From a virus, in IMG/VR virus record IMGVR_UViG_3300028666_000070, positions 1 through 35,720 of that record: a DNA stretch of 35,720 nt; one strand, given 5' to 3'. Under the pieces are notes generated by a model, which ran no database searches, was not told the origin of the DNA, and saw nothing but the letters and a program-made list of their open reading frames with translations. Shown here in pieces: positions 6,246-23,523 of this stretch. Each line of letters opens with the position of its first letter. Positions within the stretch are counted from its first letter, which is position 1. The translations under genes were made by a program, and so were the position numbers.

Positions 6246-6256
6246 GGGGTTACCCC
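6246..6256 (-). promoter_or_regulatory. late-promoter candidate dyad GGGGTTACCCC, copy 1
   Basis: The dyad is TTGGGGTTACCCCAA including flanks (6244-6258). It lies just beyond the stop of the preceding gene and 78 bases before the tail tube start. The identical 11-mer occurs only twice more by eye, each ahead of another leftward late block. See the findings for the comparison. Confidence 0.5.
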
Positions 6257-6259
6257 AAT

Positions 6260-6583
6260 TCATTTTCCCATCATCCGATAATTTTCTTTTGGAGCAGCCG
6301 CCGTGACCATGCCCCATCCGTCGCCAGCCGGTGTCCACGATTTTGAATACCACGTCACCAGATCGGTGCTGGCTTCCAGCGTCCATGTGTAATTTGAGTC
6401 CAAATGAGGCAGCAGAATGTCCACGATGCCGTTTGTGAACGGCGACCGCACCGCTGCCAACCGCACAATGACCGGAGCCGCAATCGTGCCGCGGCCAAGC
6501 AGCACGCGATGGCCGAGCGTGGCCGACATGCCCACCACCGGCAGCAGCAGCAGAGCTATCAAAATTGACAGAAAGGTTTTCAT
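6260..6583 (-). CDS. small secreted protein
   Basis: A 107-residue protein with a clear Sec signal peptide (MKTFLSILIALLLLPVVGMS, cleavage probably after SA). The mature part contains TWTLEASTDLVTW, a motif I associate with verrucomicrobial secreted proteins that carry C-terminal beta-sandwich repeats. It is translationally coupled to the preceding 26-codon frame by ATGA. The role is unknown. Its export from the host cell, rather than packaging in the virion, is suggested by the signal peptide. Confidence 0.6.
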   Translation of the reverse strand: MKTFLSILIALLLLPVVGMSATLGHRVLLGRGTIAAPVIVRLAAVRSPFTNGIVDILLPHLDSNYTWTLEASTDLVTWYSKSWTPAGDGWGMVTAAAPKENYRMMGK

Positions 6584-6660
6584 ATCGGCCCATAGCCTTC
6601 CGCGTCCTCGTCGCCGTCGAGGATGAATAGGGAGCGGAGGAATGTGAGGATGGTGGTCAT
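6580..6660 (-). CDS. 26-residue coupled microprotein or translational bridge
   Basis: This short frame encodes MTTILTFLRSLFILDGDEDA plus EGYGPI. Its ATG overlaps the stop of the SGNH hydrolase gene (ATGA), and its TGA overlaps the ATG of the next secreted-protein gene (ATGA). This two-sided coupling suggests it is translated, if only to carry ribosomes to the next gene. It has a hydrophobic first half and an acidic second half. No function is known. Confidence 0.4.
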   Translation of the reverse strand: MTTILTFLRSLFILDGDEDAEGYGPI

Positions 6661-9530
6661 GGAATATGGTTTAACCACGTCACTGTTCCCGACCCCATTA
6701 GCCCTGTCCACAACGTCACTCCATTTGAGTTGGCTTGAAATATCGCGCCCGGCAGCAATCCATTGGTGACTGCGGCAAGATTCCAAGTATTACTCATCCA
6801 ATATTGAGTGCCGTAATTGTTGACTCCAAACTGCACAAGCCCAGTTGATGCTTCTAACTTAATACCGGCGCCGACACTGTTTGCACTACCGCGAACTATT
6901 AACCCGTAATCAGAAGACGTGGCGTTTCGCATCACCACAACTGCTCTCGGCGTGATGACAAGATTGGTTAGACTGGTTAGAAACTCCATGTCTTGAACCA
7001 GCGGTCCACCATTGTAATTGTTTTTGAATTGCAGCCCGCCCAAGCCGCCGCCGACGCCAACCTCTTGCATCCCGGTCACATAATAGTTATTAGTCGTTCC
7101 AGAGCCATTGTAAGCTCCCAAGATTAGAGTCCCAGACGGGTCAACCCCCCATACAGGTGATGTTAAACTTGCTGCTCCACTAGCCCCCTGTGAACCGATT
7201 TGAGAATCAATAATGCGATTATACTTGTTTGCGAACGCGAGCTTCCCATTCCCGTTTGGTGTGTTGATGTTTAGTGGATCATAGCTGTTGGGATTTCCTG
7301 AAAAACCAAGTCGTTGAAAAGAGGTTTCAAAAAACCCTATTCGTTTTTCCGTCAAGCTCGACAAGTAAGCATACGCATCGTTTGTTAAGTGTGTTCCATC
7401 ACCTTGCCAGCCGAGGTTTACAAGGTTTTGCCAGCTACCGCAATCCGTGTAACTATCGCTCGCAAACTGGTTGTAAGTAGCCGCGAAATTAGCCATCTGG
7501 GTATTCTGCAATACTGTCAGATTGCTTATGTTGGTGTCAGCCGAGGTGGGAGTAGTGAGAATATAACACCAATTTGCCAGTGGTGCCGAGTTTGTCCATC
7601 GAACATAATTTGTGTATAAATCCGATGCGAAAGGCACTCCGTTATTTGTGGGCCCGTCTTTGAGTTCAACAAACCCAAGATCGGGGGCAAGGTCTGCAAA
7701 AAAATTTGTGGCAATAGACAGGTTGCAGCTATTGAATGATTGCAATGCTTGACCACCTTGATTCAACTGAATATCAATAATACCTGACGTTACCGTTGCC
7801 CGAAGCCATGCCTCTAAAAAACGATTGGTTCCAGTCGTGCTGTTCAGTTGCACATTCCAATACCCCGTCCCGACATAGATATTTGTAACACCAAACCCAA
7901 CAACGCTGTTGCTGCCATTGACTGTCCCGATGGTGACTAAATTGGTGTTGTAGTAATTAGTGCAAATCTGAATTGTGAACGTACCAGCAGTTGGTTCTTT
8001 GATGTAGTCAACCTCAACAGTGTCCCCATACGCTCCTCCACCGCCATTATTAAACACGAGGCTGCTATTAGGTGGAGCGTAAAAGAGAGTTCCCACAGGC
8101 GACACAGAGAAGTCATTTGTTAGATAAGACCCATTAGTGTAAGCATATGCCGGCATCGTTAAGCCGTATATTCCTGCCACGCCAAAACGCTTGACAAGAT
8201 CAGAGACAATGAACTGTGATTGCCTATAAGCAACTGAATCACCGTAAGCTAATACGCGTAATTGAAAGTTAGTGCTACCTCTATTGCCAAGTCCATTTCC
8301 TTGCATCCCGGCAACTTTAGTAAAAAAATTTTGGAATGGCACCGCAGTCACTTGGTTTTGCAGTGGTAGCGAAACGGGAGACAAATTCACCGGGTTCAAA
8401 CTGGATACATTCGTAGGCATCTGCGAACTGGCCAGCGTGCCGGTGATGCTGTCGGCGGAGAGGTTGGTCAGGCCGGATCCGTTGCCAGCAAAACCTGCGG
8501 TAGCTGAAAAAATACCATTGTAACCAAACGTCCAAGAATTTCCGTTTCCGTTCGTAACAATCAAATTGTCATCGGCACCGCCGTCCGTCACTCCAAAGGT
8601 GAAGTCGGATTCCCCTCTTTGAAATTGAAGCACCCCGTAGCCGTCAACCGCATCCCAATATGGAATGATGGTGGTTTTTTTAAGAGTTACCGATTTTAAC
8701 ATAACGCCATCCTGACCATTCGTCACAATGGAAGTGGATTCCGGATAAAATCCATTGGGGTCAAAAAAACCACCCGACGAACCATCAAGCCCGTAACCGT
8801 AATTATCAGAAAACGATTTTCCAAAAATGTCACCCTGCCAGCTAATTGACGCTGATAAATTGGTGCCGTCTTTACCCCACCATTCTGCTAAGTGCGGCTT
8901 TCCGTGTGTGGCGCCGCCGCCGCCATAAATGCGGAGTGGCACGGCGCTGAGGTTGGTAAACACGACTGTCGTCGCCAGGTTCGTCACCACGTTCGCCGCC
9001 GCCAGCATTGAACCAAAAGCGTCTGGCGTCACATAATTAGTCGGGATGAAAACCGTTTGAAACCAGACGAACGGAACGGCGTTGGTGGTCGGCGCGGCGT
9101 TGGTGATGGCGGTGTTTCCACCCCAGCGTAAATCCCCCTGTGCGAAGGTGGGATAATTGGTGCCCAGGTTCGGCGGCGGATCAAACCATAAATTATTCTG
9201 GGCATAAATCGTTCCGTTCGTCACTGGCGCGCTAAACGTGAACGTAGTAAAATTAGCGCCCACCGGCTGCACTTGGTAAAGAGACGGCACAACATTGGTG
9301 ATAAGAAAACTTCCAGAACTGTCGGTGGTGAAAGTGCCCGTCCGCCATTGCGTGGCCACGCCGCCCGCCGCCGGCTGCGGAAAATCCTGCGCCACCACGA
9401 TGCACTTCACGCCCGCCAGCGGATTTTGCTGCGCGTCCAGAATCGTCACCACCACATTCCCCGCCAGCGTGACGCTGGACCCAATAATTAAAAAAAGCAG
9501 GGTGTAAAAAAGGGCGCTGGTTTTTTTCAT
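6657..9530 (-). CDS. large secreted SGNH/GDSL-family hydrolase, candidate fibre-like esterase
   Basis: I chose the ATG at 9530, which gives a clean signal peptide (MKKTSALFYTLLFLIIG…LAG) and 957 residues; in-frame ATGs at 9548 and 9572 only add a polar extension. Residues ~20-110 look like a carboxypeptidase-regulatory/Ig-like module (VTILDAQQNPLAGVKCIVVA). Then come beta-helix-like Asn/Thr/Gly-rich repeats. From about residue 425 there is an SGNH hydrolase core, with block I GDS (S432) and block V DGTHL (D711, H714), separated by a long jelly-roll-like insertion. The C-terminus is again beta-rich. Enzymes of this type remove acetyl or other ester groups from glycans. It follows the gp37-like gene, where phages often place receptor-binding proteins, yet a Sec signal on a virion fibre is unusual. 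Confidence 0.75.
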   Translation of the reverse strand: MKKTSALFYTLLFLIIGSSVTLAGNVVVTILDAQQNPLAGVKCIVVAQDFPQPAAGGVATQWRTGTFTTDSSGSFLITNVVPSLYQVQPVGANFTTFTFSAPVTNGTIYAQNNLWFDPPPNLGTNYPTFAQGDLRWGGNTAITNAAPTTNAVPFVWFQTVFIPTNYVTPDAFGSMLAAANVVTNLATTVVFTNLSAVPLRIYGGGGATHGKPHLAEWWGKDGTNLSASISWQGDIFGKSFSDNYGYGLDGSSGGFFDPNGFYPESTSIVTNGQDGVMLKSVTLKKTTIIPYWDAVDGYGVLQFQRGESDFTFGVTDGGADDNLIVTNGNGNSWTFGYNGIFSATAGFAGNGSGLTNLSADSITGTLASSQMPTNVSSLNPVNLSPVSLPLQNQVTAVPFQNFFTKVAGMQGNGLGNRGSTNFQLRVLAYGDSVAYRQSQFIVSDLVKRFGVAGIYGLTMPAYAYTNGSYLTNDFSVSPVGTLFYAPPNSSLVFNNGGGGAYGDTVEVDYIKEPTAGTFTIQICTNYYNTNLVTIGTVNGSNSVVGFGVTNIYVGTGYWNVQLNSTTGTNRFLEAWLRATVTSGIIDIQLNQGGQALQSFNSCNLSIATNFFADLAPDLGFVELKDGPTNNGVPFASDLYTNYVRWTNSAPLANWCYILTTPTSADTNISNLTVLQNTQMANFAATYNQFASDSYTDCGSWQNLVNLGWQGDGTHLTNDAYAYLSSLTEKRIGFFETSFQRLGFSGNPNSYDPLNINTPNGNGKLAFANKYNRIIDSQIGSQGASGAASLTSPVWGVDPSGTLILGAYNGSGTTNNYYVTGMQEVGVGGGLGGLQFKNNYNGGPLVQDMEFLTSLTNLVITPRAVVVMRNATSSDYGLIVRGSANSVGAGIKLEASTGLVQFGVNNYGTQYWMSNTWNLAAVTNGLLPGAIFQANSNGVTLWTGLMGSGTVTWLNHIP
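9463..9493. repeat. 32-bp dispersed repeat, copy within SGNH signal-peptide coding region
   Basis: The core palindrome CCAGCGTGACGCTGG followed by ACCCAAT-A-ATTAAAAA matches 27300-27331 at 31 of 32 positions in the same orientation. Here it encodes the end of the hydrolase signal peptide (IIGSSVTLAG, minus strand). The sequence resembles a host-type repetitive element. Confidence 0.7.
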
Positions 9531-9555
9531 AAAATCAATCAGGTGCATCAGCGGG

Positions 9556-10032
9556 TTAGTCAATCTCCTCATCCACTTCGGAGCAGATCACAAACTCCAG
9601 CCGGTAGGCATCCAGGCTCACGCCTTCGATGTTTAACAGACCGTAGCCGTGATAGTAGGGCTTCAGTTCATCTTCGACATCGAAGCGCAGCTTGCGCACC
9701 GCGCAGCGCGCGGTGCGCAGCAGCTCATACATCGGCTTGCCGCCGGCGATGCCTTCCACGAGCGATTTGCCCGCGTAGTTTTCCAGGCTGTAACCGCGCG
9801 AGATGGCCACCCAGAACTTGCGATCCATCCGGCCTTCCACGTCCGACCACTCAGCATTACGCGGCTGTTCATCCACGATCAGCAGGCCGGCACGCGGCGA
9901 GCCGGACGCTTCACCAAGAATCTTCACCAGGTGCGGAATGTCGTGCGCGATATGGACCGAGCCACCGTTGGCCTTGCACCAGTCGCCCAGGCCATCCTTG
10001 ATGCAATTAAGCTGGTCCTCCTCGGTCATCAT
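9556..10032 (-). CDS. Mu gp37-like (DUF1834-type) head-tail / tail terminator protein
   Basis: A 158-residue protein, MMTEEDQLNCIKDGL. It has the size, the alternating alpha/beta pattern and the position (directly after the gp36-like gene, ATGA overlap) of Mu gp37-type proteins, which close the tail end or join it to the head. The mid-protein segment GLLIVDEQPRNAEW and the C-terminal VSLDAYRLEFVICSE are compatible with this. The family call rests mainly on order and length. Confidence 0.55.
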   Translation of the reverse strand: MMTEEDQLNCIKDGLGDWCKANGGSVHIAHDIPHLVKILGEASGSPRAGLLIVDEQPRNAEWSDVEGRMDRKFWVAISRGYSLENYAGKSLVEGIAGGKPMYELLRTARCAVRKLRFDVEDELKPYYHGYGLLNIEGVSLDAYRLEFVICSEVDEEID

Positions 10033-10445
10033 AGGCTGGAGCCCTGCGTCTTGCTGGGCGTGGCGGTGATGGCACCAGGCGCGAAGGCCGGCCGCTCTTG
10101 CGCATCCAGGGATTTCTTACGGTCGGAGATTTCTTTCAGCTCTTCGCGGAAAAGATTCGCGCGGCTGGTGTAGGGGTTTTTTTCATCCACGCCCTGCCGG
10201 CGGCGGTTGAACAGGATCTCGCACGCGAAGATGAGCGCGGCCTCGCCCGCGAGCTTGGGAATGGGCGAGAGCGGCACAACATAGCGACCAGAGAGAAACG
10301 CATCCACGGCATCGCTGGCGCGCTGCAACAGCCGATCCACCACGCCGTCGTCAATCTTGCCGTCGTTGTCATCGTCCAGGGCCTCGATGATCTTGGCGTT
10401 GCCGCCAATCTCGTCTTCCAAAAGTTGTTGGGTGGTGTAGGCCAT
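10029..10445 (-). CDS. Mu gp36-like (DUF1320) head-tail connector protein
   Basis: A 138-residue protein, MAYTTQQLLEDEIGG. It shows the DUF1320 pattern: an Asp-rich N-terminal segment, then RASDAVDAFLSGRYVVPLS (helix, then RY-x-x-P-L), then a helical part with FNRRRQ. Proteins of this family plug the head-tail interface. It overlaps the next gene by ATGA and is preceded by an AATCGTAAATC-type repeat that ends right at its start codon. Confidence 0.75.
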   Translation of the reverse strand: MAYTTQQLLEDEIGGNAKIIEALDDDNDGKIDDGVVDRLLQRASDAVDAFLSGRYVVPLSPIPKLAGEAALIFACEILFNRRRQGVDEKNPYTSRANLFREELKEISDRKKSLDAQERPAFAPGAITATPSKTQGSSL

Positions 10446-10481
10446 GGGATTTACGATTTCGGATTTTCGATTTCCGATTTA
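10446..10481 (-). repeat. AATCGTAAATC-type intergenic repeat, copy 1
   Basis: On the minus strand this is a run of AAATCG(G/T/A)AAAT units. It encodes the last residues of the upstream glycosyltransferase gene (SEIENPKS) and ends at the start codon of the gp36-like gene. Similar runs, in the same orientation relative to transcription, are at 26031, 30562 and 32758. Confidence 0.7.
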
Positions 10482-11764
10482 ACAAACGGATTGCCGGCCT
10501 GGAACGGCAGCGGCCATTCGGCGCGGCCGGCGTGGCGCAGCACAACGTCGGCATCGGCAAAGATTTTTCCGCCCAGCTCCAGCCAGCGCTGGCAGAACAT
10601 CCAATCTTCGGTGAGGAACCTTCCTTCGCGGACGCCCTGCGTCCAGAACGCGAACTCCTCGCGGTGCGGGGCGAAATCCTGTTTGTATTTTTCCACCACG
10701 CCACGCGCGATCAGCGTTTCAAACACCGCGCGCTTAATGCAGAGGAAACCGGTGCCGATGTAGCGCACCGGCGACAGGCCATCCTCCCGCACCGGCGCTT
10801 CGCCGGGAGCGAGGCCGTTCCCGCACCACTCCACCACGGGCTTGAGATTCTTGAGCGGATAGAGGCCGCCGACCACCGGCTCGGCATGCGAACTGACCTG
10901 TGCCACGTCTTCCGCGCTGAAACCGATGTCCGCATCCACAAACAAAATATGGGTGCAATCACTTTCCAGAAAATTGGCGGTGAGAATATTGCGGGCGCGT
11001 TCCACGCTGGGATCACAACTCCAGCCGATCTGGACTTTCACCGTGGTGCGCAAGACGAGCGCGACCAAGGATTGGACAAAGGAGACGTCGTTGTTGGCGA
11101 AGTGGCCGGCCACGGCGAGATAGACAGACCGGGGGGCGGCGCTGGCCGTGGCCTTCGCCGTGAAACTTGTTACGCCATCATCCTTGCCGAATTTCAAAAC
11201 GCCATGCTCGGCGCTGCCTTTGATGCGTTCTAATAATTTGAAACCCGCTTCCACCAGAATGGCGGAAATTATCTGCCGATCCTTGACGCTATGATATTCC
11301 ACCACGACCGCGCGCGTCCGGGAGAGATCCAGATTTTCGAGGATTTCCACCTCGCAGCCTTCGGTGTCAATCTTCACCATCTCATGGCTCGGGATGGTGC
11401 CGGCGGCGTGAACGACGACGGGAATTTTTTCGGACGTCTGGCGTCCGCGCTGGTGGAAGCTGTGCGTGACAAAATTCTCGCCCTTAAAAATCTCTTGGGA
11501 GCCGGCGGCGGCGCGGACGCCCGCCTGGAAAATTGCGATGCCGCCAACCTCGAATTTTTCCTTGAGATTACCGATGAGCGCCCGGCAGTTTTCCGGCACC
11601 GGCTCGTAGGCGGAGATTTTTGCGGCGGGCCATTTGGCGGCGTAGTGGAGACAGAACGCGCCGATGTTTGCGCCAAGGTCGAGGATGCTGGTCGGCGGCG
11701 GGGTGATGTCCAGATCGTATGCCGCCACTTCTTTCGCGAGCCAGTCAGGGATGGGAGTCTTCAT
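10451..11764 (-). CDS. fused FkbM-type methyltransferase and glycosyltransferase
   Basis: The ATG at 11764 (MKTPIPDWLAKEV) gives about 437 residues; longer frames run back through hairpin DNA. The N-terminal half is an FkbM-family SAM methyltransferase: SAM-binding ILDLGANIGAF near residue 28, then YEPVPENC, and KIDTEGCEVEIL. The C-terminal half is a glycosyltransferase with a DxD metal site (LFVDADIGF, D277 and D279), a preceding R-A-R-N-I-L segment, and GTGFLCIKRAVF, typical of the acceptor side. Together they could add a sugar and O-methylate it. The gene sits between capsid genes and the connector genes, behind a terminator. This suggests modification of a virion protein, or of host surface glycan during infection. 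Its C-terminus ends in a host-type repeat tail, hinting at recent insertion of the module. Confidence 0.8.
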   Translation of the reverse strand: MKTPIPDWLAKEVAAYDLDITPPPTSILDLGANIGAFCLHYAAKWPAAKISAYEPVPENCRALIGNLKEKFEVGGIAIFQAGVRAAAGSQEIFKGENFVTHSFHQRGRQTSEKIPVVVHAAGTIPSHEMVKIDTEGCEVEILENLDLSRTRAVVVEYHSVKDRQIISAILVEAGFKLLERIKGSAEHGVLKFGKDDGVTSFTAKATASAAPRSVYLAVAGHFANNDVSFVQSLVALVLRTTVKVQIGWSCDPSVERARNILTANFLESDCTHILFVDADIGFSAEDVAQVSSHAEPVVGGLYPLKNLKPVVEWCGNGLAPGEAPVREDGLSPVRYIGTGFLCIKRAVFETLIARGVVEKYKQDFAPHREEFAFWTQGVREGRFLTEDWMFCQRWLELGGKIFADADVVLRHAGRAEWPLPFQAGNPFVKSEIENPKS

Positions 11765-11799
11765 GTGCATTTGGTTTTGTGCATTGGTTTTTATTAGGA

Positions 11800-11814
11800 G
11801 GCCGAACTTCGGCC
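11800..11814. other. perfect dyad, possible RNA hairpin
   Basis: GGCCGAACTTCGGCC lies directly next to the T-tract of the neighbouring terminator and just upstream of the glycosyltransferase start. It may be part of the same attenuation structure. Confidence 0.4.
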
Positions 11815-11856
11815 AAAAAAGCGGCGGGATGGAAAATGCACTAACCATCCCGCCGC
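11815..11856 (-). terminator. leftward Rho-independent terminator after the capsid genes
   Basis: A perfect 12-bp inverted repeat (GCGGCGGGATGG at 11821-11832, complement at 11845-11856) has a 12-base loop and is followed on the minus strand by TTTTTT (11820-11815). This is a textbook intrinsic terminator. It would separate the strongly expressed capsid genes from the glycosyltransferase and connector genes, or act as a partial attenuator. Confidence 0.75.
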
Positions 11857-11861
11857 ACGGT

Positions 11862-11897
11862 TTAATCCGCTTGCGCGGACGCCACCTAAACGGTGGC
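11862..11897 (-). other. two further tandem hairpins
   Basis: ATCCGCTTGCGCGGAC (11862-11877) and GCCACCTAAACGGTGGC (11881-11897) can each fold into a short stem-loop. They sit just after the stop of the capsid-associated gene and in front of the strong terminator. They could protect the capsid mRNA 3' end. Confidence 0.45.
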
Positions 11898-11903
11898 CGG
11901 GGT

Positions 11904-12308
11904 TTATTCGTTCAGCCAGTCGGCGGTGAGCAGCGCGGCGGTGTTGTCGCCCGCGCCGGTCGGCACAGCCACGAGCAGTCCAGCCGGACCACGGAGGCCG
12001 GGCGGCAGCGGGCAGTCCACATAGCCGGCGGCAGCGCCGTTGGTGGCCACGCCCACGATCTGCACCTGGATGAGCGGGGCGGTGTTGGCGTAAGTCGCGC
12101 CGCCATCCGCGCTGTCCTGGATGGTCGCCGTGATGGTGAGGCTGGAGTTCGAATGGTTCGGCAGCGCCGGCCACGCGATGCGCACGCGGCCCGCCCGCCA
12201 GTTGTCCGAGAAACCCGGCTGATCCACGCCCAGATCCATCGGGTTGATGGAGACGTTGGCGTTGGCGGCGGGCATATAAACTTCGAGATGGAGTGCTTTA
12301 TCTTTCAT
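11904..12308 (-). CDS. capsid-associated (possibly decoration) protein
   Basis: A 134-residue, beta-rich protein, MKDKALHLEVYMPAANANVS. It contains WRAGRVRIAWPALPNHS and TITATIQDSADGGATY. It is encoded two genes after the major capsid protein and is followed by a strong terminator, so it is probably made in quantity. Small beta proteins at this place often decorate the head. I do not recognise the family. Confidence 0.5.
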   Translation of the reverse strand: MKDKALHLEVYMPAANANVSINPMDLGVDQPGFSDNWRAGRVRIAWPALPNHSNSSLTITATIQDSADGGATYANTAPLIQVQIVGVATNGAAAGYVDCPLPPGLRGPAGLLVAVPTGAGDNTAALLTADWLNE

Positions 12309-12355
12309 GGTGTTTGATTTTTAATTTTGCGATGGCGGAGATGAATGGCATCCGG

Positions 12356-12778: not shown

Positions 12779-12823
12779 TTTGCGTTTTGGTTTGAGTTTC
12801 AGTTTTAAAATTGAATTTTATTT

Positions 12824-12851
12824 GCCCGCGCCGGTATCACCCGGCGCGGGC
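12824..12851. other. strong hairpin after the major capsid gene
   Basis: An 11-bp perfect stem (GCCCGCGCCGG at 12824-12834, complement at 12841-12851) has a six-base loop and lies a few bases after the capsid stop. On the minus strand it is followed by A-rich DNA, not a T-tract. It is therefore more likely an mRNA-stabilising 3' structure than a complete terminator. Confidence 0.5.
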
Positions 12852-12857
12852 GGTGAA

Positions 12858-13921: not shown

Positions 13922-14401
13922 TCAGGCAGTGGCCAGCACCGGCAGCGTCAGGCCGGAAACTTTCGCCTCATCATTGAAGATGGCTGAGAGATCCACGCGG
14001 CCCTTGGCATCCTTGTAAGTCTTGGCCGATTCGGTGGCATGCGGCGCGGTGCGGGCCGAGAGCGGCACGGTGACCGCCGTGTTGGCGAGCAGCAGCTCCA
14101 GCGTGTCCAGCCCGAGCGTCTTGAGTTCGTCGGCGGAATAGTTCGTGCCATCCGCTTTCTTCGGCACCTTGCCCTGGCTGGCGAACAGCGTGACGAGCTG
14201 GCCGCGTTTAATGTCCGTGGCCGTCTTCTCGCCATCGGTCAGCTTCTTCTCCAGCGCCTCAATGCGGGCCGAGAGCGGTTTGAGGTCAACCGTTTCGCCG
14301 GCGGGCAGCGCCAGGCGTTTCGTCAGCGCGGAAGTCACGGCGGCTTCATCGGCGGTTTCCGCCAACCCGAGGGCAGCGGCCAGAACTTTCAATTGAATCA
14401 T
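13922..14401 (-). CDS. possible internally started scaffold protein (Z-like)
   Basis: The in-frame ATG at 14401 (residue 196 of the gpI-like protein) follows a linker, TPAAPQTTEKNHT. It opens MIQLKVLAAALGLAETADE, which looks like a natural N-terminus. Starting here would give a 159-residue scaffold, matching how Mu makes gpZ inside gene I. There is no clear Shine-Dalgarno sequence, only a purine run. Confidence 0.45.
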   Translation of the reverse strand: MIQLKVLAAALGLAETADEAAVTSALTKRLALPAGETVDLKPLSARIEALEKKLTDGEKTATDIKRGQLVTLFASQGKVPKKADGTNYSADELKTLGLDTLELLLANTAVTVPLSARTAPHATESAKTYKDAKGRVDLSAIFNDEAKVSGLTLPVLATA

Positions 14402-14986
14402 GGTGTGATTTTTTTCGGTGGTTTGCGGAGCCGCCGGCGTTGTGCCGGCGGAAAGGGTCTTGAGGTCGGCGGACAGTTCGTTGTCGGCGGAAAGAGTCTC
14501 AGGCGCTTGCGCAAAGCCAACGCCATAAGCCGCCCCAGTGTGGGTGAGCGCCACGCTGTGCGCGCCGATGACGCGACCTTGCTTGTCACAATAAGGCGCT
14601 AGGGAAACATCTTCAAAATCTTGAGCCGATTTTTTGCCGGTGCCGGTGTAGGTGATGGCTTCCGCAAAAATTCCTTCGTTCGGAATGCAGACGAGATTGG
14701 TATGGCCGGCAACGGCGCGCGGCTCGGTGGTGCGCTTGTATTCCGGGGTGCCGGGAACAGTGTTATGCTCAAAGTCCAGCACCACGCGTTCGCGGCCGAT
14801 GGCTTTTTGATTCGCAGAAAAAACGCGGGCGGTGAGTTCATCCACAATCACTTCACCTTCGCTGGTGGGATTCTTACCCCAGCCGAGGAGCTTGATGCGC
14901 GTGGGAAGTTCCGCCGCGACACCTTCGCTCGCCGCTGAAAGTTTCAGCGGAGTGGCGGGGGCGAGAGCGAGGCGGATGCCGTTCAC
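13922..14986 (-). CDS. Mu gpI-like capsid maturation protease with scaffold C-terminus
   Basis: A 354-residue protein with a GTG start at 14986 (VNGIRLALAPATPLKL). The N-terminal half (residues ~30-180) has the Mu I protease pattern: LLGWGKNPTSEGEVIVDE, VVLDFEHNT with a conserved His after Asp-Phe-Glu, EPRAVAGHT, and DFEDVSLAPYCDK. The C-terminal half is a charged helical scaffold (ARIEALEKKLTDGEKTATD). In Mu this gene yields both the protease and, from an internal start, the scaffold Z. A GGGGTTACCCC dyad stands 38 bases upstream, at the place of Mu's PI late promoter. Confidence 0.85.
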   Translation of the reverse strand: MNGIRLALAPATPLKLSAASEGVAAELPTRIKLLGWGKNPTSEGEVIVDELTARVFSANQKAIGRERVVLDFEHNTVPGTPEYKRTTEPRAVAGHTNLVCIPNEGIFAEAITYTGTGKKSAQDFEDVSLAPYCDKQGRVIGAHSVALTHTGAAYGVGFAQAPETLSADNELSADLKTLSAGTTPAAPQTTEKNHTMIQLKVLAAALGLAETADEAAVTSALTKRLALPAGETVDLKPLSARIEALEKKLTDGEKTATDIKRGQLVTLFASQGKVPKKADGTNYSADELKTLGLDTLELLLANTAVTVPLSARTAPHATESAKTYKDAKGRVDLSAIFNDEAKVSGLTLPVLATA

Positions 14987-15023
14987 GCTCGCAACTCTAC
15001 GCGGGCGGAAGGCTTTTGATTAT

Positions 15024-15034
15024 GGGGTTACCCC
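15024..15034 (-). promoter_or_regulatory. late-promoter candidate dyad GGGGTTACCCC, copy 2
   Basis: This copy is 38 bases upstream of the gpI-like gene. On the minus strand the dyad is followed by CATAATCAAAAG, very like copy 3 (CATAACGCAAAAAG). Mu has its PI late promoter at the equivalent place. Confidence 0.55.
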
Positions 15035-15512: not shown

Positions 15513-15566
15513 CACCTCACCCCAACCCTCTCCCCATTCGCAGCCGCTGCGAACGCGGAGAGGGAG
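15513..15566 (+). repeat. CTCACCCC-type inverted-repeat element, copy 1
   Basis: CACCTCACCCCAACCCTCTC and a downstream GGAGAGGGAG form an imperfect hairpin between the MuF and gpG genes. The first 21 bases recur exactly, in reverse orientation, at the 3' end of the small terminase gene (19980-20019). Confidence 0.75.
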
Positions 15567-16388: not shown

Positions 16389-16397
16389 TTCAGCGTT

Positions 16398-18200
16398 TCA
16401 GCTTTTGCCTTTCACCGCCCCGCGCGCCGCGCAAACCTGCATGGCCTCTTCCAGGATGTTCGCGATACGGTCGGGATCCCAATCCGCGAAGAACGTGCGG
16501 AGCTGGTGCTCGGCATCGGCGCGGCTGGTGCTGCTCAAAATAATCTGGCGCACCGGCGCGAGCGAACCGCGGAAGGCACCGGCGAGGGCGAGTGAATGTT
16601 TTGCCACCACTTCATCCACTTCCGTTTTAGTCGCGCCATTACCACCACCAGCGGCCAGCCACATCAACCGGGCGGCGAGCGGCTTGATTTCATCATCGGC
16701 CGCTTCAGGTTTCAGGTTTCCGGTTTCAGGTTTTCCTGGCGTCGGCGGCAGTGCAACCGCCTTGCGTTGCCAGGAGATGCCGGTGCGCTCATTGATGGTG
16801 GCGACGGATTCCGGCGTCGGCTCGTAGCCGGCCTCATTCATGGTCTTGAGCGTGGTGGCAAAGGTGCTGGCATCCGCATCGCTCAAACCGCCCCAGACAT
16901 ATTTGACCATGCCCTTGAGACCGTTGATGTCGCGGAACGGAATGGCGATCTGCTTCACGCACGTTTCCGAGAGCGTCATATTATCCATCATGCGCACGTC
17001 TTCGCGCACGGCCCCGGCGAAATTGCTCTGGCCGGCGTTCAAGCCGCCCGGCTGCTCGGATTTACGGATGCCGGTGATGTGAAACGAAATTGCTTCGTTG
17101 CACATATTATAGAACGTCTCGTAACCCTGAGCCATCCCTTGCACCATGGCCTCCTTGAGTTCGATGCGGCTGGATTCATCCACCACGATGCCGCCGATCT
17201 TCTTGGAGAGATCAAAGGCCGCGTGCAGCAGCGCCACCGCCACCGGATCGTTGGCATCCGTGTAACCCACCGGAAACGGCGTCCCCACGCGCTCCATGCC
17301 GCGCGCAAACCATTCGCGCCCGAGATTGCGGAACAGCCACCACATGACGATGGCCCGGCCGGGACCGCCCCAGTTATCCCGGAACGTCTGCATGAGGTGG
17401 CCGCGATGGACGATGTGCCGCAGCGGATCCAGATAGCTCGCGTTGGTGACGTCATAGATGATGCGCCCCGCATTATCAATCGGCCACAGTTTGAAATACG
17501 GTTCCCAGCGTTCGAGATCAATTTTGTAAGGGCTGGTTTCTTCCGTGCCCAAGCCACCAGGCTTGCCCGCCATTTGCGAAAGCTGGATGGCGCTCGCGGT
17601 GCCCAGACCGACACCGCCCATGAGGTAAGCCCACGAGAAACAATGCAACTGCGGATTGACCGGCACAAATTTGCGCAGTGTATATTGCAGGCGCGGCGCG
17701 CCCGGCTTGGGTTCGCCGGCGGTTTTGTAAAGCCGCTCCACCACGCTCACCGGCCAGAAACCGTTTGAATCCATCAACGCCAGCATTCCCGCCGTCCAAT
17801 TTTCGCAATCATTCTTCGCCTGGGTGAGCGCATTGGCCAGCGCCATGTCATCGGCATTGTTTTTATCTTCCGGCAAAATGGAGAGCGGCTGCGCCAGCAG
17901 CGCCAGCTTGCGCGTGTTGAAACAGGATTGGATATGATCGTCCGAAAGCAACACGTCGCGCAGGAAGCGATAATATTCCTGAACATCGCCGGACTCGGCG
18001 GAGCGGATGGCATTCTGCACGGCCTGCACATCCGCGTTGGTGGTGATGTTGCTCGGCTCGTAACGCGGCGAAAGAAACTTCGTCTGCCGGCTGGCCACCG
18101 GGCCATCATCTGGCAGAGAACCATATTGCGGATTCGCGCGGGATGGTTTGGTGTCACCAAAACTCACGACCGACTTGCCGAAGATTTTTAGCTCTTTCAT
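16398..18200 (-). CDS. DUF935 portal protein (Mu gp29-like)
   Basis: A 600-residue protein, MKELKIFGKSVVSFGDTKPS. It shows the DUF935 portal pattern: YYRFLRDVLLSDDHIQSCFN, a long central domain with WFRNLGREWFARGMERVG-like helix (WWLFRNLGREWFARGM), and FHITGIRKSEQ. The portal ring is the DNA entry and exit channel. It sits between terminase and MuF genes exactly as in Mu. Around residues 490-500 there is an in-frame host-type repeat (GKPETGNLKPEA) in a linker before the last domain. Confidence 0.9.
   Translation of the reverse strand: MKELKIFGKSVVSFGDTKPSRANPQYGSLPDDGPVASRQTKFLSPRYEPSNITTNADVQAVQNAIRSAESGDVQEYYRFLRDVLLSDDHIQSCFNTRKLALLAQPLSILPEDKNNADDMALANALTQAKNDCENWTAGMLALMDSNGFWPVSVVERLYKTAGEPKPGAPRLQYTLRKFVPVNPQLHCFSWAYLMGGVGLGTASAIQLSQMAGKPGGLGTEETSPYKIDLERWEPYFKLWPIDNAGRIIYDVTNASYLDPLRHIVHRGHLMQTFRDNWGGPGRAIVMWWLFRNLGREWFARGMERVGTPFPVGYTDANDPVAVALLHAAFDLSKKIGGIVVDESSRIELKEAMVQGMAQGYETFYNMCNEAISFHITGIRKSEQPGGLNAGQSNFAGAVREDVRMMDNMTLSETCVKQIAIPFRDINGLKGMVKYVWGGLSDADASTFATTLKTMNEAGYEPTPESVATINERTGISWQRKAVALPPTPGKPETGNLKPEAADDEIKPLAARLMWLAAGGGNGATKTEVDEVVAKHSLALAGAFRGSLAPVRQIILSSTSRADAEHQLRTFFADWDPDRIANILEEAMQVCAARGAVKGKS
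16704..16734 (-). repeat. TTGAAACCTGAAA-type repeat, copy 2, inside the portal gene
   Basis: Read on the minus strand it is a run of AAACCTGAAACC-like units encoding ETGNLKPE in frame. It falls in an apparent linker, so it is tolerated by the protein. The related copy is at 15041-15068. Confidence 0.65.
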
Positions 18201-18222
18201 AATTTTAGAAATTTAAATGGGT

Positions 18223-18357
18223 CTAAACTGTGCTGTTAGAAAACATCAGACCGCTTTCCGCCGAGCGTCGCGCGGGGGTAGGTTGCGTTTTTGAAGCCAT
18301 GGACGCGCCGTGACAGCCCTTAAATCGTCCTAGGGCATTTGTGAGCGTTTTCTTCAT
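18223..18357 (-). CDS. small coupled protein between terminase and portal
   Basis: A 44-residue frame (MKKTLTNALGRFKGCHGAS…). Its ATG overlaps the terminase stop (ATGA), and it ends 23 bases before the portal start. No other frame fills this 150-base gap. It is basic, with no known family. Translation is plausible because of the coupling, but it could be a spacer. Confidence 0.35.
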   Translation of the reverse strand: MKKTLTNALGRFKGCHGASMASKTQPTPARRSAESGLMFSNSTV

Positions 18358-19967
18358 AGGCTGGAAGCCCCCCGAAATTGCAGCGGCACCGGATTATTAT
18401 CCGCCGCCAGCGCCATGGGCGGAACGATGGTGCGACCGCTGCCGCCATTCTTAAGCGCGAAACCGCCGAGCTTGTCACCATCAAAAGTGTCGCCGTGCAT
18501 TCCCTGATCGTTCGGCTCGCATACGAACCGGCCGCGATCCTTCATCACCAGCCGATAATCCTGCCGCGTGTAAGTATCCGGCGGCAGGGTGAGATTGTTG
18601 TCATCCAGCTTGGCCACCAGCGCCTCGCCGGTAAATTCTTTATAGTTCACCGGCTTATCCAAACCGGGCTTGTCCACACCTTCGCTGGCCACCACCAGAA
18701 TCACCGGCAATTTCCGGCGCAGCCGCTTGCGGTTGTCTTCCGCATAATATTTTTCGTTCGTGGCATCCTGGGCGAGCGCCACGGCGCGGCCGCCGGGCCG
18801 GCGCGCAATCAAATCAATCACGCCATCCAAACGCTCGTTGGCCACTTCGGGATCCTTCGTCTTCCAAACCAGCCGCGCGCGCACGATCCATTCCGGCCCG
18901 TGCTCTTCCACCAAGGACAGCACGGAAGGATTACTGGTGCCTTTCGTGGTCGTCGCCACATCGAAGCCCAGGCCGATGCGGGCCTTCGGGTCAATGTGCT
19001 CGGCAATCCATTTGAGCGCCGCGAGAAAATCCGCGTGCGTCTCCACCAAGAAATTTTGGCAGGTGCCGATACCGCGTTCCTGTGAGGTTTGCAGCCGGAG
19101 CAGGTCGCACGCGGCGGATCCACCAATGACAAACTTGACGCCGTAGTTACGATCCCACGCATCTTTGTTCGACTCGCGCCGGCGGGATTCGGCGGGCGAG
19201 ATCTCCGCGCCGGTGTCGTCATCGTAAAGTTTTACGCCGTCCGCGTCGGCATCCCACGCGGTGATCATGCGCACGAACACGCCGGACTCGGTGCGGTAAG
19301 TATGACCTTCCGGCGCGGCCTCGGGATTGAATCCCGGCGGAGGCGCGAGCAGTTCAAAGGAATAGTGCGTGTCGTCCGGCGGCGGCGTCGTCGTGACCAG
19401 ACAGCGGAAATCCGGGTTGGAAGAGATGATCGGCTTGACCGCTTCCCACACCTCGCGGAATTTTTTCACGCGGCCCACTTCATCCAGGATGAGGTCGCCA
19501 GTTTCGCCCACGGCATCCGGCGTGAGCGCCACCACCTTGGTGCGGCTGTAAAGCGTGCGGGAATGGTAGAGGCGAAATTCCAGCCGCTGCGCCTCATAAA
19601 GTTCCGTGAAGTCGTCGGGTGAAATAATGAATTTCTTTTCGCCTTCCAGGGCGACCTGATGGCCATCTTTACTATTCACCATCTGCAAATCCATCTTCGC
19701 CTGCTTGGCCTGCGCGGCGATCATCTGGAACGCCTTGGCCATCTGCTCGGATTCCTTGCGGACGATTTCGCGGCCCAGATCCAATTTGACGGAACCGAAC
19801 ACCACCGTGTGCCCGGCGATGCGCATCATCTTCTTAAGCGCGATGCGCGAGGCGTTGGTGGTCTTACCGTATTGGCGGCGGGTCAGGAAGGCGGAGACGC
19901 GATGGAGATCAATATCTCGTTCAAAGGCTACCTGCCCCGCGCGTGCTTTGTAAATGGCGGCGCACAT
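18354..19967 (-). CDS. terminase large subunit (Mu gp28-like)
   Basis: A 537-residue protein. It has the ATPase motifs Walker A (TRRQYGKTT near residue 30) and Walker B (DLILDEVGRV near 160), with coupling motif CLVTTTPPP. The RNase H-like nuclease has its first Asp in GLGFDVATTTKG and late acidic residues in HGDTFDGDKL. It pumps DNA into proheads and makes the packaging cut. In Mu-type phages it is preceded by the gp27 small subunit and followed by the DUF935 portal, as here. Confidence 0.92.
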   Translation of the reverse strand: MCAAIYKARAGQVAFERDIDLHRVSAFLTRRQYGKTTNASRIALKKMMRIAGHTVVFGSVKLDLGREIVRKESEQMAKAFQMIAAQAKQAKMDLQMVNSKDGHQVALEGEKKFIISPDDFTELYEAQRLEFRLYHSRTLYSRTKVVALTPDAVGETGDLILDEVGRVKKFREVWEAVKPIISSNPDFRCLVTTTPPPDDTHYSFELLAPPPGFNPEAAPEGHTYRTESGVFVRMITAWDADADGVKLYDDDTGAEISPAESRRRESNKDAWDRNYGVKFVIGGSAACDLLRLQTSQERGIGTCQNFLVETHADFLAALKWIAEHIDPKARIGLGFDVATTTKGTSNPSVLSLVEEHGPEWIVRARLVWKTKDPEVANERLDGVIDLIARRPGGRAVALAQDATNEKYYAEDNRKRLRRKLPVILVVASEGVDKPGLDKPVNYKEFTGEALVAKLDDNNLTLPPDTYTRQDYRLVMKDRGRFVCEPNDQGMHGDTFDGDKLGGFALKNGGSGRTIVPPMALAADNNPVPLQFRGASSL

Positions 19968-19970
19968 GGT

Positions 19971-20702
19971 TCATTTTTTCACTCCCTCTCCGCGCTGGGG
20001 AGAGGGTTGGGGTGAGGTGTTCGTCGCTGGCGTCCAGGTGTCTCCAAACATCAACTGGCCGAGCTTCTCAATCTTGTCGGCGTTGCTGGTATCGGCGGCG
20101 GCCAGTTCGTTCGCGTGTTTGTCCGCGTGCCATTTCAAAAAGAGTTCGCACGTCTCGCGCTGGTATTTTTCGCGCGCCAGGGAAATCTCCTCGCCCTTTT
20201 GCGAGACCTTGATTTTTTCGAGGCCGAGCTTCACATCCGTCTGCTCGCTGCCGCGCAGGGCCGCGAGCGCGCGGGAAATGTTCACCAGCGCCTCGGGATC
20301 CAGCTTGGTGTCGCCGGTGGCTTCGTCCACGGCTTCGAGCAGTTCCAGCAGCTTGCCGCTGGCGATACTCGCCGCGCCGTCCGCGATGGTGCTGCCATTG
20401 GCCCGCGACTGCTCGGCGGCGTAGCGCGAGAGTTCGCGCGTGCGTTCGATGCGTTCCGCCTTGCGTAGAAAATCTTCGTAGCCGCTCTGCCGCCACGCGG
20501 TGATGTTGGTATCGTTCACCGGCATCCCTTCAAACTCCGCCGCGAGCACGGCCTGCACTTCCGGCAGCGCATTCAGCCAGGCGGTGATGCGCTTGGCGCT
20601 CATACCTTCGTGCAGACGCCGGCACACTTCCTCGCGGACCTTGCTGGGCAGCCGGGCAATCTTGCCTTTGAGCGCGTTGTCGCGGAGTTTGGGTTGATCC
20701 AT
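19971..20702 (-). CDS. terminase small subunit (Mu gp27-like, DUF3486)
   Basis: The ATG at 20702 (MDQPKLRDNALKGKIARLP) gives 243 residues; it lies one base after the upstream stop. The GKIARLPSKVREEVCRRLHE segment, followed by G-M-S-A-x-x-I-x-x-W-L, is the helix-turn-helix-like DUF3486 pattern. A long coiled middle (LGLEKIKVSQKGEEISLARE) follows. It recognises the phage end and loads the large subunit. The C-terminus, SPQPSPQRGEGVKK, is encoded by a CTCACCCC-type repeat, which has evidently replaced the original end. Confidence 0.85.
   Translation of the reverse strand: MDQPKLRDNALKGKIARLPSKVREEVCRRLHEGMSAKRITAWLNALPEVQAVLAAEFEGMPVNDTNITAWRQSGYEDFLRKAERIERTRELSRYAAEQSRANGSTIADGAASIASGKLLELLEAVDEATGDTKLDPEALVNISRALAALRGSEQTDVKLGLEKIKVSQKGEEISLAREKYQRETCELFLKWHADKHANELAAADTSNADKIEKLGQLMFGDTWTPATNTSPQPSPQRGEGVKK
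19980..20019 (-). repeat. CTCACCCC-type inverted-repeat element, copy 2, coding for the small terminase C-terminus
   Basis: CTCCCTCTCCGCGCTGGGGA and the following GAGGGTTGGGGTGAGG fold into a hairpin. Read on the minus strand it encodes SPQPSPQRGEG. It is inverted relative to the copy at 15513-15566. Confidence 0.8.
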
Positions 20703-20703
20703 A

Positions 20704-20970
20704 TCAACTTCTTTCCTGATGCAGCACGCCTTCGCTGGTGGCGCGCCAATACTTCGTGCCGCCGAGTTCATTGAGGATCCACTCGGCGAATTTCAAACCG
20801 CGCAAAATTTCCAGCGCGGCCACGAGCTCGGCCTCCTCAAACAGAAAATCCAAATCTTTTTTCACGGCGTTGCCGAGCTGGCGCGGCGTGAGCGCGGCGG
20901 GATGGCGCACCACCAGCGCGGCCAGCGCCGCCGTGCGCAAATCCTCTTTCTGTCCGTTCGTCAGATTCAT
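20704..20970 (-). CDS. winged-helix protein of the packaging operon
   Basis: I chose the ATG at 20970 (MNLTNGQKEDLRTAAL), giving 88 residues; the longer frame overlaps the upstream gene. It has a winged-helix look: helix, then LTPRQLGNAVKKDLDFLFEE, helix LVAALEILRGLKFA, and a wing ending in KYWRATSEGVLH. In Mu-like phages small genes at this place accompany gp27. It may help DNA recognition, but this is inference. Confidence 0.6.
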   Translation of the reverse strand: MNLTNGQKEDLRTAALAALVVRHPAALTPRQLGNAVKKDLDFLFEEAELVAALEILRGLKFAEWILNELGGTKYWRATSEGVLHQERS

Positions 20971-20974
20971 AAAT

Positions 20975-21370
20975 CTATTTGCCAAGATTGCCTTCGATGC
21001 GGCCCAGCGCGCGGCTGATGGCATCAAACTTGTCCGCCACTTCCTTGCGGATTTCCTTGTCCTCATTGCGCATCGTCATCCAGATATTTTTGATTTCGCT
21101 ATCGTGGCCATCAATCCGCCGGCCATGCTCATCGTGTTTGTCGGTCAAATCTTTGATGGTGGCATTGGGAAAAATCTTCATCGTCGGCAGCGGATTCGGT
21201 TCGAGGAGCGTGGGCTTGTTCTCGCGCCGCTTGTCCATGAAATATTGCAGAGCGGCAAAGAGCGCGCTCACCACGAACGCCATCACCACGATGGCCCCGA
21301 GGGTGAGAATGGCCATCTCCTTCAAAAACCCCGCCGGCAACTGCCCGATGTCCGCCTGCGCGAGAATCAT
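20975..21370 (-). CDS. single-pass membrane protein, lysis-like cassette
   Basis: A 131-residue protein, MILAQADIGQLPAGFLKEM. It has one transmembrane helix at about residues 20-45 (AILTLGAIVVMAFVVSALFA), then a charged helix/coiled coil (DKHDEHGRRIDGHDSEIKNI). Topology and place fit a holin-accessory, spanin-like or Mu gp22-25-type membrane protein. It overlaps its upstream neighbour by ATGA. Confidence 0.55.
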   Translation of the reverse strand: MILAQADIGQLPAGFLKEMAILTLGAIVVMAFVVSALFAALQYFMDKRRENKPTLLEPNPLPTMKIFPNATIKDLTDKHDEHGRRIDGHDSEIKNIWMTMRNEDKEIRKEVADKFDAISRALGRIEGNLGK

Positions 21371-21591
21371 TGCTTTTCCCCTTTCACCCAGATCACCTTG
21401 CCAAGAAATTTCACGATGCCGCCGTGGGCGATGCAGTAATCCGCAAAATCAATGAGCCAGTCGGACAGTTTTTTGATTTCCGCGCGCAGCCAGACGAGGG
21501 CGAAACAGATGGCCGGCCAGTTGGCGCTGACTTGCGCTTTGAGGGTGGCCGCGTCCTGCGCCACCTGGTTGAGTTGGTTCGGGTCAATCAT
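21367..21591 (-). CDS. small membrane-associated protein, lysis-like cassette
   Basis: The ATG at 21591 (MIDPNQLNQVAQDAATL) overlaps the lipase stop (ATGA) and gives 74 residues. A hydrophobic/amphipathic stretch NWPAICFALVWLRAEIKKLS spans the middle, and the C-terminus is basic. A holin-type role is possible from size and neighbours; the sequence itself is not recognised. Confidence 0.5.
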   Translation of the reverse strand: MIDPNQLNQVAQDAATLKAQVSANWPAICFALVWLRAEIKKLSDWLIDFADYCIAHGGIVKFLGKVIWVKGEKQ

Positions 21592-22349
21592 AAGAGAGCT
21601 AATTTTTCCTGATATGCCTTGATGAAATGGTTCGGCAGGAATGCGAGCTGGCAGTGCCGCCACGAATCCAAAATCCCGGCGAGATCGTTGAACAGCGTGA
21701 AGCTGATGGACGGATTCACCGCGTAACCACCCGATGATCGGGAGCCGCCACGGGGCAGAAAAATTTCGTTGCCCTCATCGCGATAACCGAGGAGCAGCGG
21801 CGGAAATAGCGGCACCGGGTCGTTGGCGTTGATGACGTGGAAGGTGCGGTCGCCCAGCGCGCCCCAGTAGATGGCGGCGAAGGCGTAATTGCCCACGCGC
21901 GGCTGGCCGAATGTGATGACATTTTCCACCGGCAAGCCTTGCCGGGAAAATTCCAGCCCCGCCAAAATCGCGATGCCGCCGCCGAGCGAATGGCCGGTGA
22001 TATAAATCCGGGCGGTTGGTTGGGTGGCGAGCAGATTTCTCACCGCCGCCACCACCGCCACGTTGATCGCTTCAAAATCTTCAAGAAAACCCTGATGCAC
22101 TTCCGCCACGATGTCATCCGTGGTGGACAACACAGTGCGCGTGAATTTTGCATCCTGAATAAAATCCTGCGGTTCCTGGCTGCCGCGAAAAGCGACGATG
22201 ATGGCCGGCTCGCCGTTGATGACTTCCGCCAACACCAGCGCCTGCGCATCCGTGGCGGCATCGCTGACCGTGTGCTGGTCATACGCCAGCGCGGCGCGGT
22301 TGGCGAGCAGCTGGATCAGCGACCAGTCAATGGTGGCGGTGGTCATCAT
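21588..22349 (-). CDS. class 3 (fungal-type) lipase, candidate lysis or envelope enzyme
   Basis: A 253-residue protein. It has the lipase_3 layout: IVAFRGSQEPQDFIQD (residues ~51-66, oxyanion region), VHQGFLEDF, and the nucleophile elbow ITGHSLGGG with Ser121. ITFGQPRVGNYAF follows, then Asp177 (NANDPVPLFPP) and a C-terminal His241 (FLPNHFIKAY), so the whole Ser-Asp-His triad is visible. There is no signal peptide, so it would need a holin-like partner to leave the cytoplasm; two small membrane proteins follow with ATGA overlaps. It sits where Mu keeps its lysis genes. It may cut membrane lipids at lysis, like the lipolytic lysis enzymes of some other phages. A virion-borne lipase is the alternative. 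Confidence 0.85.
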   Translation of the reverse strand: MMTTATIDWSLIQLLANRAALAYDQHTVSDAATDAQALVLAEVINGEPAIIVAFRGSQEPQDFIQDAKFTRTVLSTTDDIVAEVHQGFLEDFEAINVAVVAAVRNLLATQPTARIYITGHSLGGGIAILAGLEFSRQGLPVENVITFGQPRVGNYAFAAIYWGALGDRTFHVINANDPVPLFPPLLLGYRDEGNEIFLPRGGSRSSGGYAVNPSISFTLFNDLAGILDSWRHCQLAFLPNHFIKAYQEKLALL

Positions 22350-22495
22350 GGCGTGAGGGCGGCCAGCCAGAGCTTGAGAAGTTCGTGGCGTGCCCAGTCC
22401 ACCAGTGGCCGCACCGCTAGGTGCTCAGGTGAACACCCCACTTGCCGCGCCGCTGGTGATGGCGCAGGGTTTAAATTGGGAGTGCTGGCGTTCAT
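22346..22495 (-). CDS. 49-residue protein coupled to the lipase gene
   Basis: The frame MNASTPNLNPAPSPAARQ… ends with a short helix (VDWARHELLKLWLAALTP). Its TGA overlaps the lipase ATG. It fills a gap of about 170 bases between two clear genes. It is probably translated; the function is unknown. Confidence 0.45.
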   Translation of the reverse strand: MNASTPNLNPAPSPAARQVGCSPEHLAVRPLVDWARHELLKLWLAALTP

Positions 22496-22523
22496 TTTTT
22501 TCTTCACCGGTTTTTTCACGGGG

Positions 22524-22781
22524 TCACTCGGCGGCTTCTGTGAAATCCACGTAGAACTTCTGGCCGACCGTGAGCTTGCCAGCGAGATCGGGATTGTTGA
22601 TGGTCAGCGACAGCGAGCCGGACGGGGAATAACGGGCGAACGTATTGTCTTCGCTCTCGCCATTCGGGCCAAAAGGCTTGTTGCCGCAGACGGGAGCCAT
22701 CGTCACGGTTTGACATTGGCCGGTGGTGTCCAACGGCGTGACCGACTGGACCTGCATTTTTGCGCGCATGACTGGGTTCAT
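22524..22781 (-). CDS. small conserved-type phage protein
   Basis: An 85-residue, beta-rich protein, MNPVMRAKMQVQSVTPLD. It ends in SGSLSLTINNPDLAGKLTVG then FYVDFTEA. I recall similar small proteins with a SGSLSLTINNP core in other phage genomes, without assigned function. It has no membrane segment. Confidence 0.6.
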   Translation of the reverse strand: MNPVMRAKMQVQSVTPLDTTGQCQTVTMAPVCGNKPFGPNGESEDNTFARYSPSGSLSLTINNPDLAGKLTVGQKFYVDFTEAAE

Positions 22782-22826
22782 ATTTCCTTTGTTACTTGGT
22801 TTCTTGGTTGTTGATGATGGCGACCG

Positions 22827-23456
22827 TTAAAGTTTCACACCGATGCCGGCGCCGAGAAAAACATCCGGGCCGATGATCAGCGACGAGATGCCCACGCTGA
22901 AATGCGCGCCGAGCGCGGCGGCGATATTCGCATAGACATAATTCTCCCAGCCGTGCCGTCCAGGAATCGTGATGCCATAAGCCTCCGTGCCGGAGGTGCC
23001 AGTGACGTAGCAGAGGCCCGCCGCCACGGATTGCTCGGTGCGCAGGTTGTAATTAATGATCGGGATGCGAACCGTGCCGCTGCTCTTGAGTCCGCCCACG
23101 ACCGCCGCACCGCCTTTCATCCGTTCACCAATGAAGCCGGCGGCGGCGATGTAAGTATTGTCGCCGGTTGACCACCGAACCTCTCCAGCAAGGATGCAGT
23201 TTTTGAGTTGAGCTGAGCGCGTGTTGACGAAGACGCCGGCGTCAATGCTCACGCGGTCAAGCCAGGTAGCCGGCGGATTGGTCAGCGAGGATTCAATGGC
23301 GGCGAATGCCGGCATTACATTCGTCGCCAGCGCCGCATCCGAATTTGCCCAGTTCACATTCAACGCCTTCACGGCATCAACACGATTGGAAATATCCTGC
23401 GCACGAACGGCGGCGGCGGTGAGCAGTAAGAGAAATAAGGTGGTGATTTTTTTCAT
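22827..23456 (-). CDS. secreted, possibly outer-membrane protein
   Basis: The ATG at 23456 gives a signal peptide (MKKITTLFLLLLTAAAVRAQ). The mature part has alternating Gly/aromatic beta strands at the C-terminus (FSVGISSLIIGPDVFLGAGI), which suggests a small beta-barrel. It is the first gene of the leftward late block behind the GGGGTTACCCC dyad. It may alter the host envelope. No family was recognised. Confidence 0.55.
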   Translation of the reverse strand: MKKITTLFLLLLTAAAVRAQDISNRVDAVKALNVNWANSDAALATNVMPAFAAIESSLTNPPATWLDRVSIDAGVFVNTRSAQLKNCILAGEVRWSTGDNTYIAAAGFIGERMKGGAAVVGGLKSSGTVRIPIINYNLRTEQSVAAGLCYVTGTSGTEAYGITIPGRHGWENYVYANIAAALGAHFSVGISSLIIGPDVFLGAGIGVKL

Positions 23457-23512
23457 GGCGCGAGTTTTCAAATTGCGCCGCCATTAAACCACCGCCCCGC
23501 TTTTTGCGTTAT

Positions 23513-23523
23513 GGGGTTACCCC
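23513..23523 (-). promoter_or_regulatory. late-promoter candidate dyad GGGGTTACCCC, copy 3
   Basis: This copy is 57 bases before the first gene of the lysis/packaging block and just past a terminator. The minus strand continues CATAACGCAAAAAG, like copy 2. Confidence 0.55.

Follow-up and report, generated by a model that had tools for sequence, protein, structure and literature searches.

Three identical dyads as predicted activator sites of late promoters in a Mu-like phage

Three identical 11-base dyads in an undescribed Mu-like phage very probably mark activator-dependent late promoters that work like those of Mu, as judged from sequence comparison. The window, which is the whole stretch of DNA that was analysed, is a 35,720-base viral record of IMG/VR. 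We favour this reading because relatives of the phage carry their own elements at equivalent places, because the spacing between the element and a -10-like hexamer is locked, because in one host genome the element is restricted to the prophage, and because the late promoters of Mu have the same arrangement. The positions, the constant spacing, the recurrence and the prophage restriction were computed directly. For phages of bacterial phyla whose viruses have hardly been studied, a bare repeat becomes a regulatory map that can be tested.

The window encodes a DDE transposase, a target-choice ATPase, Gam (PF07352) and a gpI-type protease, the set by which a Mu-like transposable phage is recognised. 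The transposase and the ATPase were matched by phrog_310 and phrog_296, and terminases, portal and tape measure were also recognised. The late genes run leftward from about 23.5 kb, while the early genes run rightward from about 25 kb to the contig end. The head maturation protease, of the Mu gpI type, is encoded on the minus strand at 13922..14986 (phrog_328; PF10123, E 5e-10, above the cut-off). According to the gene calls, the first gene of the lysis/packaging block, at 22827..23456 on the minus strand, encodes a signal-peptide protein of no known family, and it is followed by an esterase/lipase-like gene (21588-22349) and then by the terminase genes. About 50,000 deposited phage genomes yielded no relative of the protease; relatives are present in IMG/VR and in genomes of Verrucomicrobiota, Kiritimatiellota and related bacteria.

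The 11-mer GGGGTTACCCC occurs exactly at 6246-6256, 15024-15034 and 23513-23523, and nowhere else in the window. All three copies are intergenic, as defined by a simple codon-usage gene caller. The transcribed, minus-strand reading is GGGGTAACCCC, a perfect 5+1+5 dyad. The copies lie 78, 38 and 57 nt before the next leftward start codons, ATG 6168, GTG 14986 and ATG 23456, respectively, and exact matching thus bears out the three positions and the range of 38-78 nt given in a preliminary description of this DNA. That description also had an A-run follow two of the copies on the minus strand at a fixed two bases. The run is present after the copies at 15024 (CATAATCAAAA) and 23513 (CATAACGCAAAAA), but the gap is of 1-2 nt; the copy at 6246 continues as CAATGCTAAAC. 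Of the genes named behind the sites, the gpI-type protease and the first lysis/packaging gene hold, while the tail-tube gene (5728..6168, minus strand, by gene calls), which is the first behind the copy at 6246, is placed by position and has no family match.

The expected count of this exact 11-mer is 0.01 per shuffled window. However, some 5+1+5 dyad with three copies appeared in 13 of 200 shuffles (about 0.065, or 6.5%), so the dyad count by itself is near chance and is weak evidence. The location of all three copies in the non-coding 9% of the window contributes a further factor of about 0.0007, and the sequence shared by the protease gap and the lysis gap exceeded that of 200 out of 200 shuffles (z 5.5, p 0.005). 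The words could also be terminators or attenuators between operons, and the copy at 6243-6259 does score as terminator-like. It is the only one of the three to do so, and on the plus strand, opposite to the genes; at none of the window copies did the gene strand show the G+C-rich hairpin and subsequent T-run that we required of an intrinsic terminator. Moreover, the elements of relatives keep a fixed distance to the -10 hexamers and start codons that they precede, which speaks against both chance and termination, and we consider this pair of explanations extremely unlikely.

Each dyad is followed, after exactly 24 nt at all three copies, by a -10-like hexamer on the minus strand. These hexamers are CAAACT (6216..6221) behind the first copy, TAGAGT (14994..14999) behind the second, 7 nt upstream of the protease GTG, and TTTAAT (23483..23488) behind the third. 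No -35/-10 pair of the sigma-70 type, and no -35 hexamer, was found at the three sites. In the spacing test, the hexamer located 7 nt upstream of the protease start codon served as reference, and the partner sites were scored at the same distance from the element, with anchors that had been set by hand from the repeats prior to hexamer scoring. Of the 23 partner sites, 11 have xAxxxT exactly at the predicted offset and 20 have it there or 1 nt to either side; other offsets give 0-2 of 23. Over 33 sites, A occupies position 2 in 30 and T position 6 in 31, counts that are descriptive, as the sites were picked by their hexamers and one window hexamer is one base off. Two partner hexamers lack A at position 2, those of the lysis sites of the window (TTTAAT) and of a close relative, g2 (TTTTGT), and the partner hexamer of L034 fits only after a shift of several nucleotides.

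The elements might instead be -35-type boxes of an alternative sigma factor, coded by the phage or the host. In two relatives, g1 and L070, the elements do reach within 17 nt of the hexamer, which is the distance of a -35 box, but the window dyad ends 24 nt and other elements 20-29 nt before it, which is too far. The sequences of the elements also vary between phages, where a host sigma factor would keep one, and the early genes that we examined included none recognisable as coding for a sigma factor. We therefore hold a sigma factor to be very unlikely, and take the elements to be predicted activator sites: of a promoter like Mu Plys for the lysis/packaging block (23513..23523), of one like PI for the protease and head genes (15024..15034) and of a tail promoter (6246..6256), all on the minus strand. 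The first two assignments draw on the exact match and on the copies in relatives, those of the lysis site lying at the same place, and the third on the exact match.

The preliminary description proposed a search for the motif in related phages. The exact window element was found in no relative, and the relatives carry different elements. The 11-mer GGGGTTACCCC is missing from the two closest phages, g1 and g2, and exact GGGGTAACCCCATAA is found across 2.9 million viral contigs in 21 stretches, a single copy in each, in seemingly unrelated contexts and in none of the relatives. However, 13 relatives have an element of their own, specific to the phage, upstream of the gene I-type protease and repeated before the lysis block, a tail gene or both. 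In g1 (the contig of L027), TGCACCGCAGAATAACGG stands just before the protease and, some 9 kb further upstream, again in front of the lysis block, and g2 (the contig of L028) has ATCCGCGCCGGATRCGCTT in the same arrangement; each word has two copies in its whole contig. We compared the protease gap with all other gaps on the same strand, and this test brought out significant repeats in other relatives too; they stand +6.7 to +10.6 kb away, before a gene equivalently placed after the tape measure. The lysis copy of g1 fell outside the gap test because of a miscalled start codon and was recovered by repeat search. Full contigs hold three or four copies of the element in L031, L037, L039 and L071, and pairs in L034, L051, L070, L074 and L079. 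Repeats in L054 (a nearby repeat), L056 (REP-like), L067, L075 and L080 (local duplications) and L069 were discounted.

The element shared by L050 and L053, ACCCGCCAGAGNRAAATG, has three copies in total in the 4.5-Mb genome G008, and all three are within the prophage: one precedes the small membrane-protein and hydrolase genes of the lysis block, one the protease and one an adhesin-like gene. In genome G006 it is found at the same three places, with one additional match, of one mismatch, inside a coding region. Elements of this kind also occur in prophages of cultured bacteria, in the genomes of Geminisphaera colitermitum TAV2 and of the Kiritimatiellaeota isolate B1221. A scattering of the motif over non-promoter places would have spoken against the idea of late promoters, and the idea survives in this relative. 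As for a common sequence, the core AACCC is not enriched in the protease gaps of relatives (14% vs 10%); the pattern [AG]ACCC[CG], chosen post hoc, is present in 21 of 36 confirmed element sites and in none in reverse. Dyad symmetry is clear in the window and is not general among the elements of relatives. In L105-L107 (G008:C11), L031, L037, L039, L071 and L079, the orientation of the lysis/packaging block with respect to the head genes is reversed, yet the block retains its promoter element, as though each block moved together with a promoter of its own.

Perfect dyads are a typical feature of repressor operators, and an HTH_3 protein is encoded between the early and late blocks (24535-24915), so that the sites could be operators at which such a protein silences the late genes in the lysogen. 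Yet the sites lie upstream of the -10 hexamer, where activators sit, and have no -35 hexamer; no copy is found at the early or repressor promoters, and the layout matches Mu promoters that require an activator (PMC4461284). Repression is thus an unlikely function of the dyads. For activation, we infer promoter activity in the cell and an activating bound protein. An activator coded by the phage, probably a dimer, would bind the dyad, whose centre is about 42-43 bp upstream of the predicted transcript start, replacing the -35 box, and would help the host RNA polymerase to use the -10 hexamer (TAGAGT, TTTAAT or CAAACT) located 24 nt downstream. In this way, one activator could turn on all three blocks, lysis/packaging, head and tail, at the same time in late infection.

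The protease mRNAs of these phages are probably leaderless, as read from the sequence before their start codons. Among 37 relatives, 11 have xAxxxT at 7 nt upstream of the protease start (about 1.4 expected, p 1e-7) and 7 further ones have it at 6 nt (about 1.4 expected). A Shine-Dalgarno-like word is found before the protease in 0 of the 37 relatives, while such a word is present in 188 of 591 genes overall of these phages. It is the hexamer peak at 6-7 nt, together with the missing Shine-Dalgarno word, that points to leaderless mRNAs. The window protease, with TAGAGT 7 nt before its GTG, has the sequence features of a leaderless start, and its transcript would begin at the GTG or within 1-2 nt of it. 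The dyad centre is 43 nt from this GTG, which places it at about -42/-43 relative to the predicted transcript start. The lysis and tail transcripts of the window would carry leaders. Our search of the openly available literature found no paper that treats late promoters or leaderless transcription of Verrucomicrobia or of the phages of this group.

The arrangement in the window resembles that of the late promoters of Mu, where C binds a dyad at four promoters, Plys, PI, PP and Pmom (PMC4287176, PMC4461284). The annotated late promoters of Mu lie before lys, I and P; as in the window, they precede the lysis block and the gpI protease and are found in the tail region, and they have a -10 hexamer without a good -35 and an activator dyad just upstream. 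They are 7.6 and 9.3 kb apart, compared with 8.5 and 8.8 kb in the window. At the three Mu promoters, AAYCCC stands 26 nt before the -10 hexamers TAGACT, CAAACT and TATCCT, so that the same architecture is visible in known promoters, while in the window AACCCC stands at 30 nt. The suggestion in the preliminary description of a late activator site or promoter element gains support from this likeness to Plys, PI and PP, and from the same-place elements of relatives at a fixed distance from the -10. Furthermore, the combination of a repeat of the protease gap with a spacing-locked -10 finds late promoters without RNA data and recovers those of Mu itself. The differences from Mu are that element sequence and spacing change from phage to phage in the relatives; that gene I of Mu has an annotated ribosome-binding site, whereas the protease mRNAs of the window and its relatives look leaderless; and that the third site of the window lies before the gene at the tail-tube position, whereas that of Mu comes after the tape measure.

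P2 and P4 also have several late operons with a common activator dyad upstream of the -10, served by Ogr and Delta. The P2 sites, of the kind TGT-N12-ACA, have their centre near -55, and the protein that binds them is a small zinc-finger protein. The window shares with them the predicted activator dyad upstream of several late operons, but its sites do not seem to follow the P2 pattern. The middle promoter Pm of Mu, which has a -10 and no marked -35, carries a Mor dyad centred at -43.5 (PMC4287176, PMC4461284). In the window the dyad centre lies 43 nt from the protease start codon, a similar distance if the transcript begins there; however, Pm is a single middle promoter, whereas the window has three sites at late blocks.

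The family of Mor and C (PF08765) was found in 0 of 20 related records, including the whole host genomes of prophages, which also sets these relatives apart from Mu. The C/Mor-like activator that had been suggested could therefore be alike in function at most, and the window is described as similar to the Mu set without being assigned to it. No similarity was found between the candidate activator proteins and Mu C. An activator gene was not recognised in the window either, perhaps as a result of the cut contig. Two positions were considered for the coding gene, which we also infer. The best-placed candidate, in the slot of C, falls past the contig end of the window. The second-best is a winged-helix protein encoded after the GemA-like gene (33254..34009, plus strand), the place taken in Mu by mor, which comes after gemA. 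This gene is nearly universal in the relatives, and its recognition helix, VRPRxTEL, is nearly invariant though the elements differ between phages, which makes this protein less likely to set the specificity. In the window, 33254-34009 is a single ORF of 251 aa that fuses the winged helix to a second domain, and in g1 these are two separate genes.

In nine phages, the winged-helix gene is followed, in place of C, by a gene of family A3, whose proteins of about 140 aa have a predicted C-terminal winged helix. A Foldseek search with A3 gave no significant match. In a second comparison, its best partners were phage Xis and an excisionase, at Z of about 4, which was too weak for naming it as such. 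One A3 subtype (A, B, L031, L070 and L071) goes with elements of the AACCCG type and the other (L034, L037 and L039) with elements of the CCAxACCCC...GCCA type. This pairing is in line with A3 being the activator, but relatedness is a confounder, and the identification of A3-type proteins as the activator is accordingly a doubtful one, though possible. In g1 there is an HTH-like gene some 5 kb beyond the winged-helix gene, and its window counterpart would be past the contig end.

In the relatives the third copy precedes a tail-fibre or adhesin-like gene, whose window counterpart would lie left of position 1. The copy at 6246 comes directly after an insert of lower G+C (6260-9572) and before the gene at the tail-tube position. 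The insert encodes a secreted signal-peptide protein of 963 aa, with a sub-threshold CarboxypepD_reg domain, and this is probably a cargo gene; the copy at 6246 may have been added so that the tail genes behind the cargo keep a promoter. A stretch of 33 nt in the signal-peptide region of the cargo gene (9462-9494) recurs with 97% identity at 27299-27331, in the gap before the transposase gene region.

More broadly, we tentatively propose, with a confidence somewhat short of even, a Mu-like phage lineage of PVC bacteria with two to four leaderless or near-leaderless late promoters. Their activator would be unrelated to Mor/C, the candidate being a winged-helix protein of about 140 aa, of the excisionase/MerR kind, encoded just before the head genes, and their operator would diverge between phages, leaving each prophage with a late regulon of its own. 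What is new here is an operator that is private to each phage and diverges throughout the family, together with the lack of a recognised Mor/C protein and the sequence signs of leaderless mRNAs; the circuit design itself is that of Mu. This suggests that a late circuit of several promoters can persist while the operator sequence and, seemingly, the activator family change.

Other repeats were noticed in the window. Tandem heptamers AAATCGT are found at 26021-26062, 30552-30593 and 32756-32783, directly before early genes and at the place of a ribosome-binding site. On the plus strand, a repeat of 41 nt (76% identical) precedes small early ORFs at 34612-34652 and 35268-35308, and its copies may serve this phage as early or middle promoters. 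Within the late genes, an exact inverted repeat of 24 nt occupies 15513-15536 and 19996-20019, the second being near the end of the small terminase gene.
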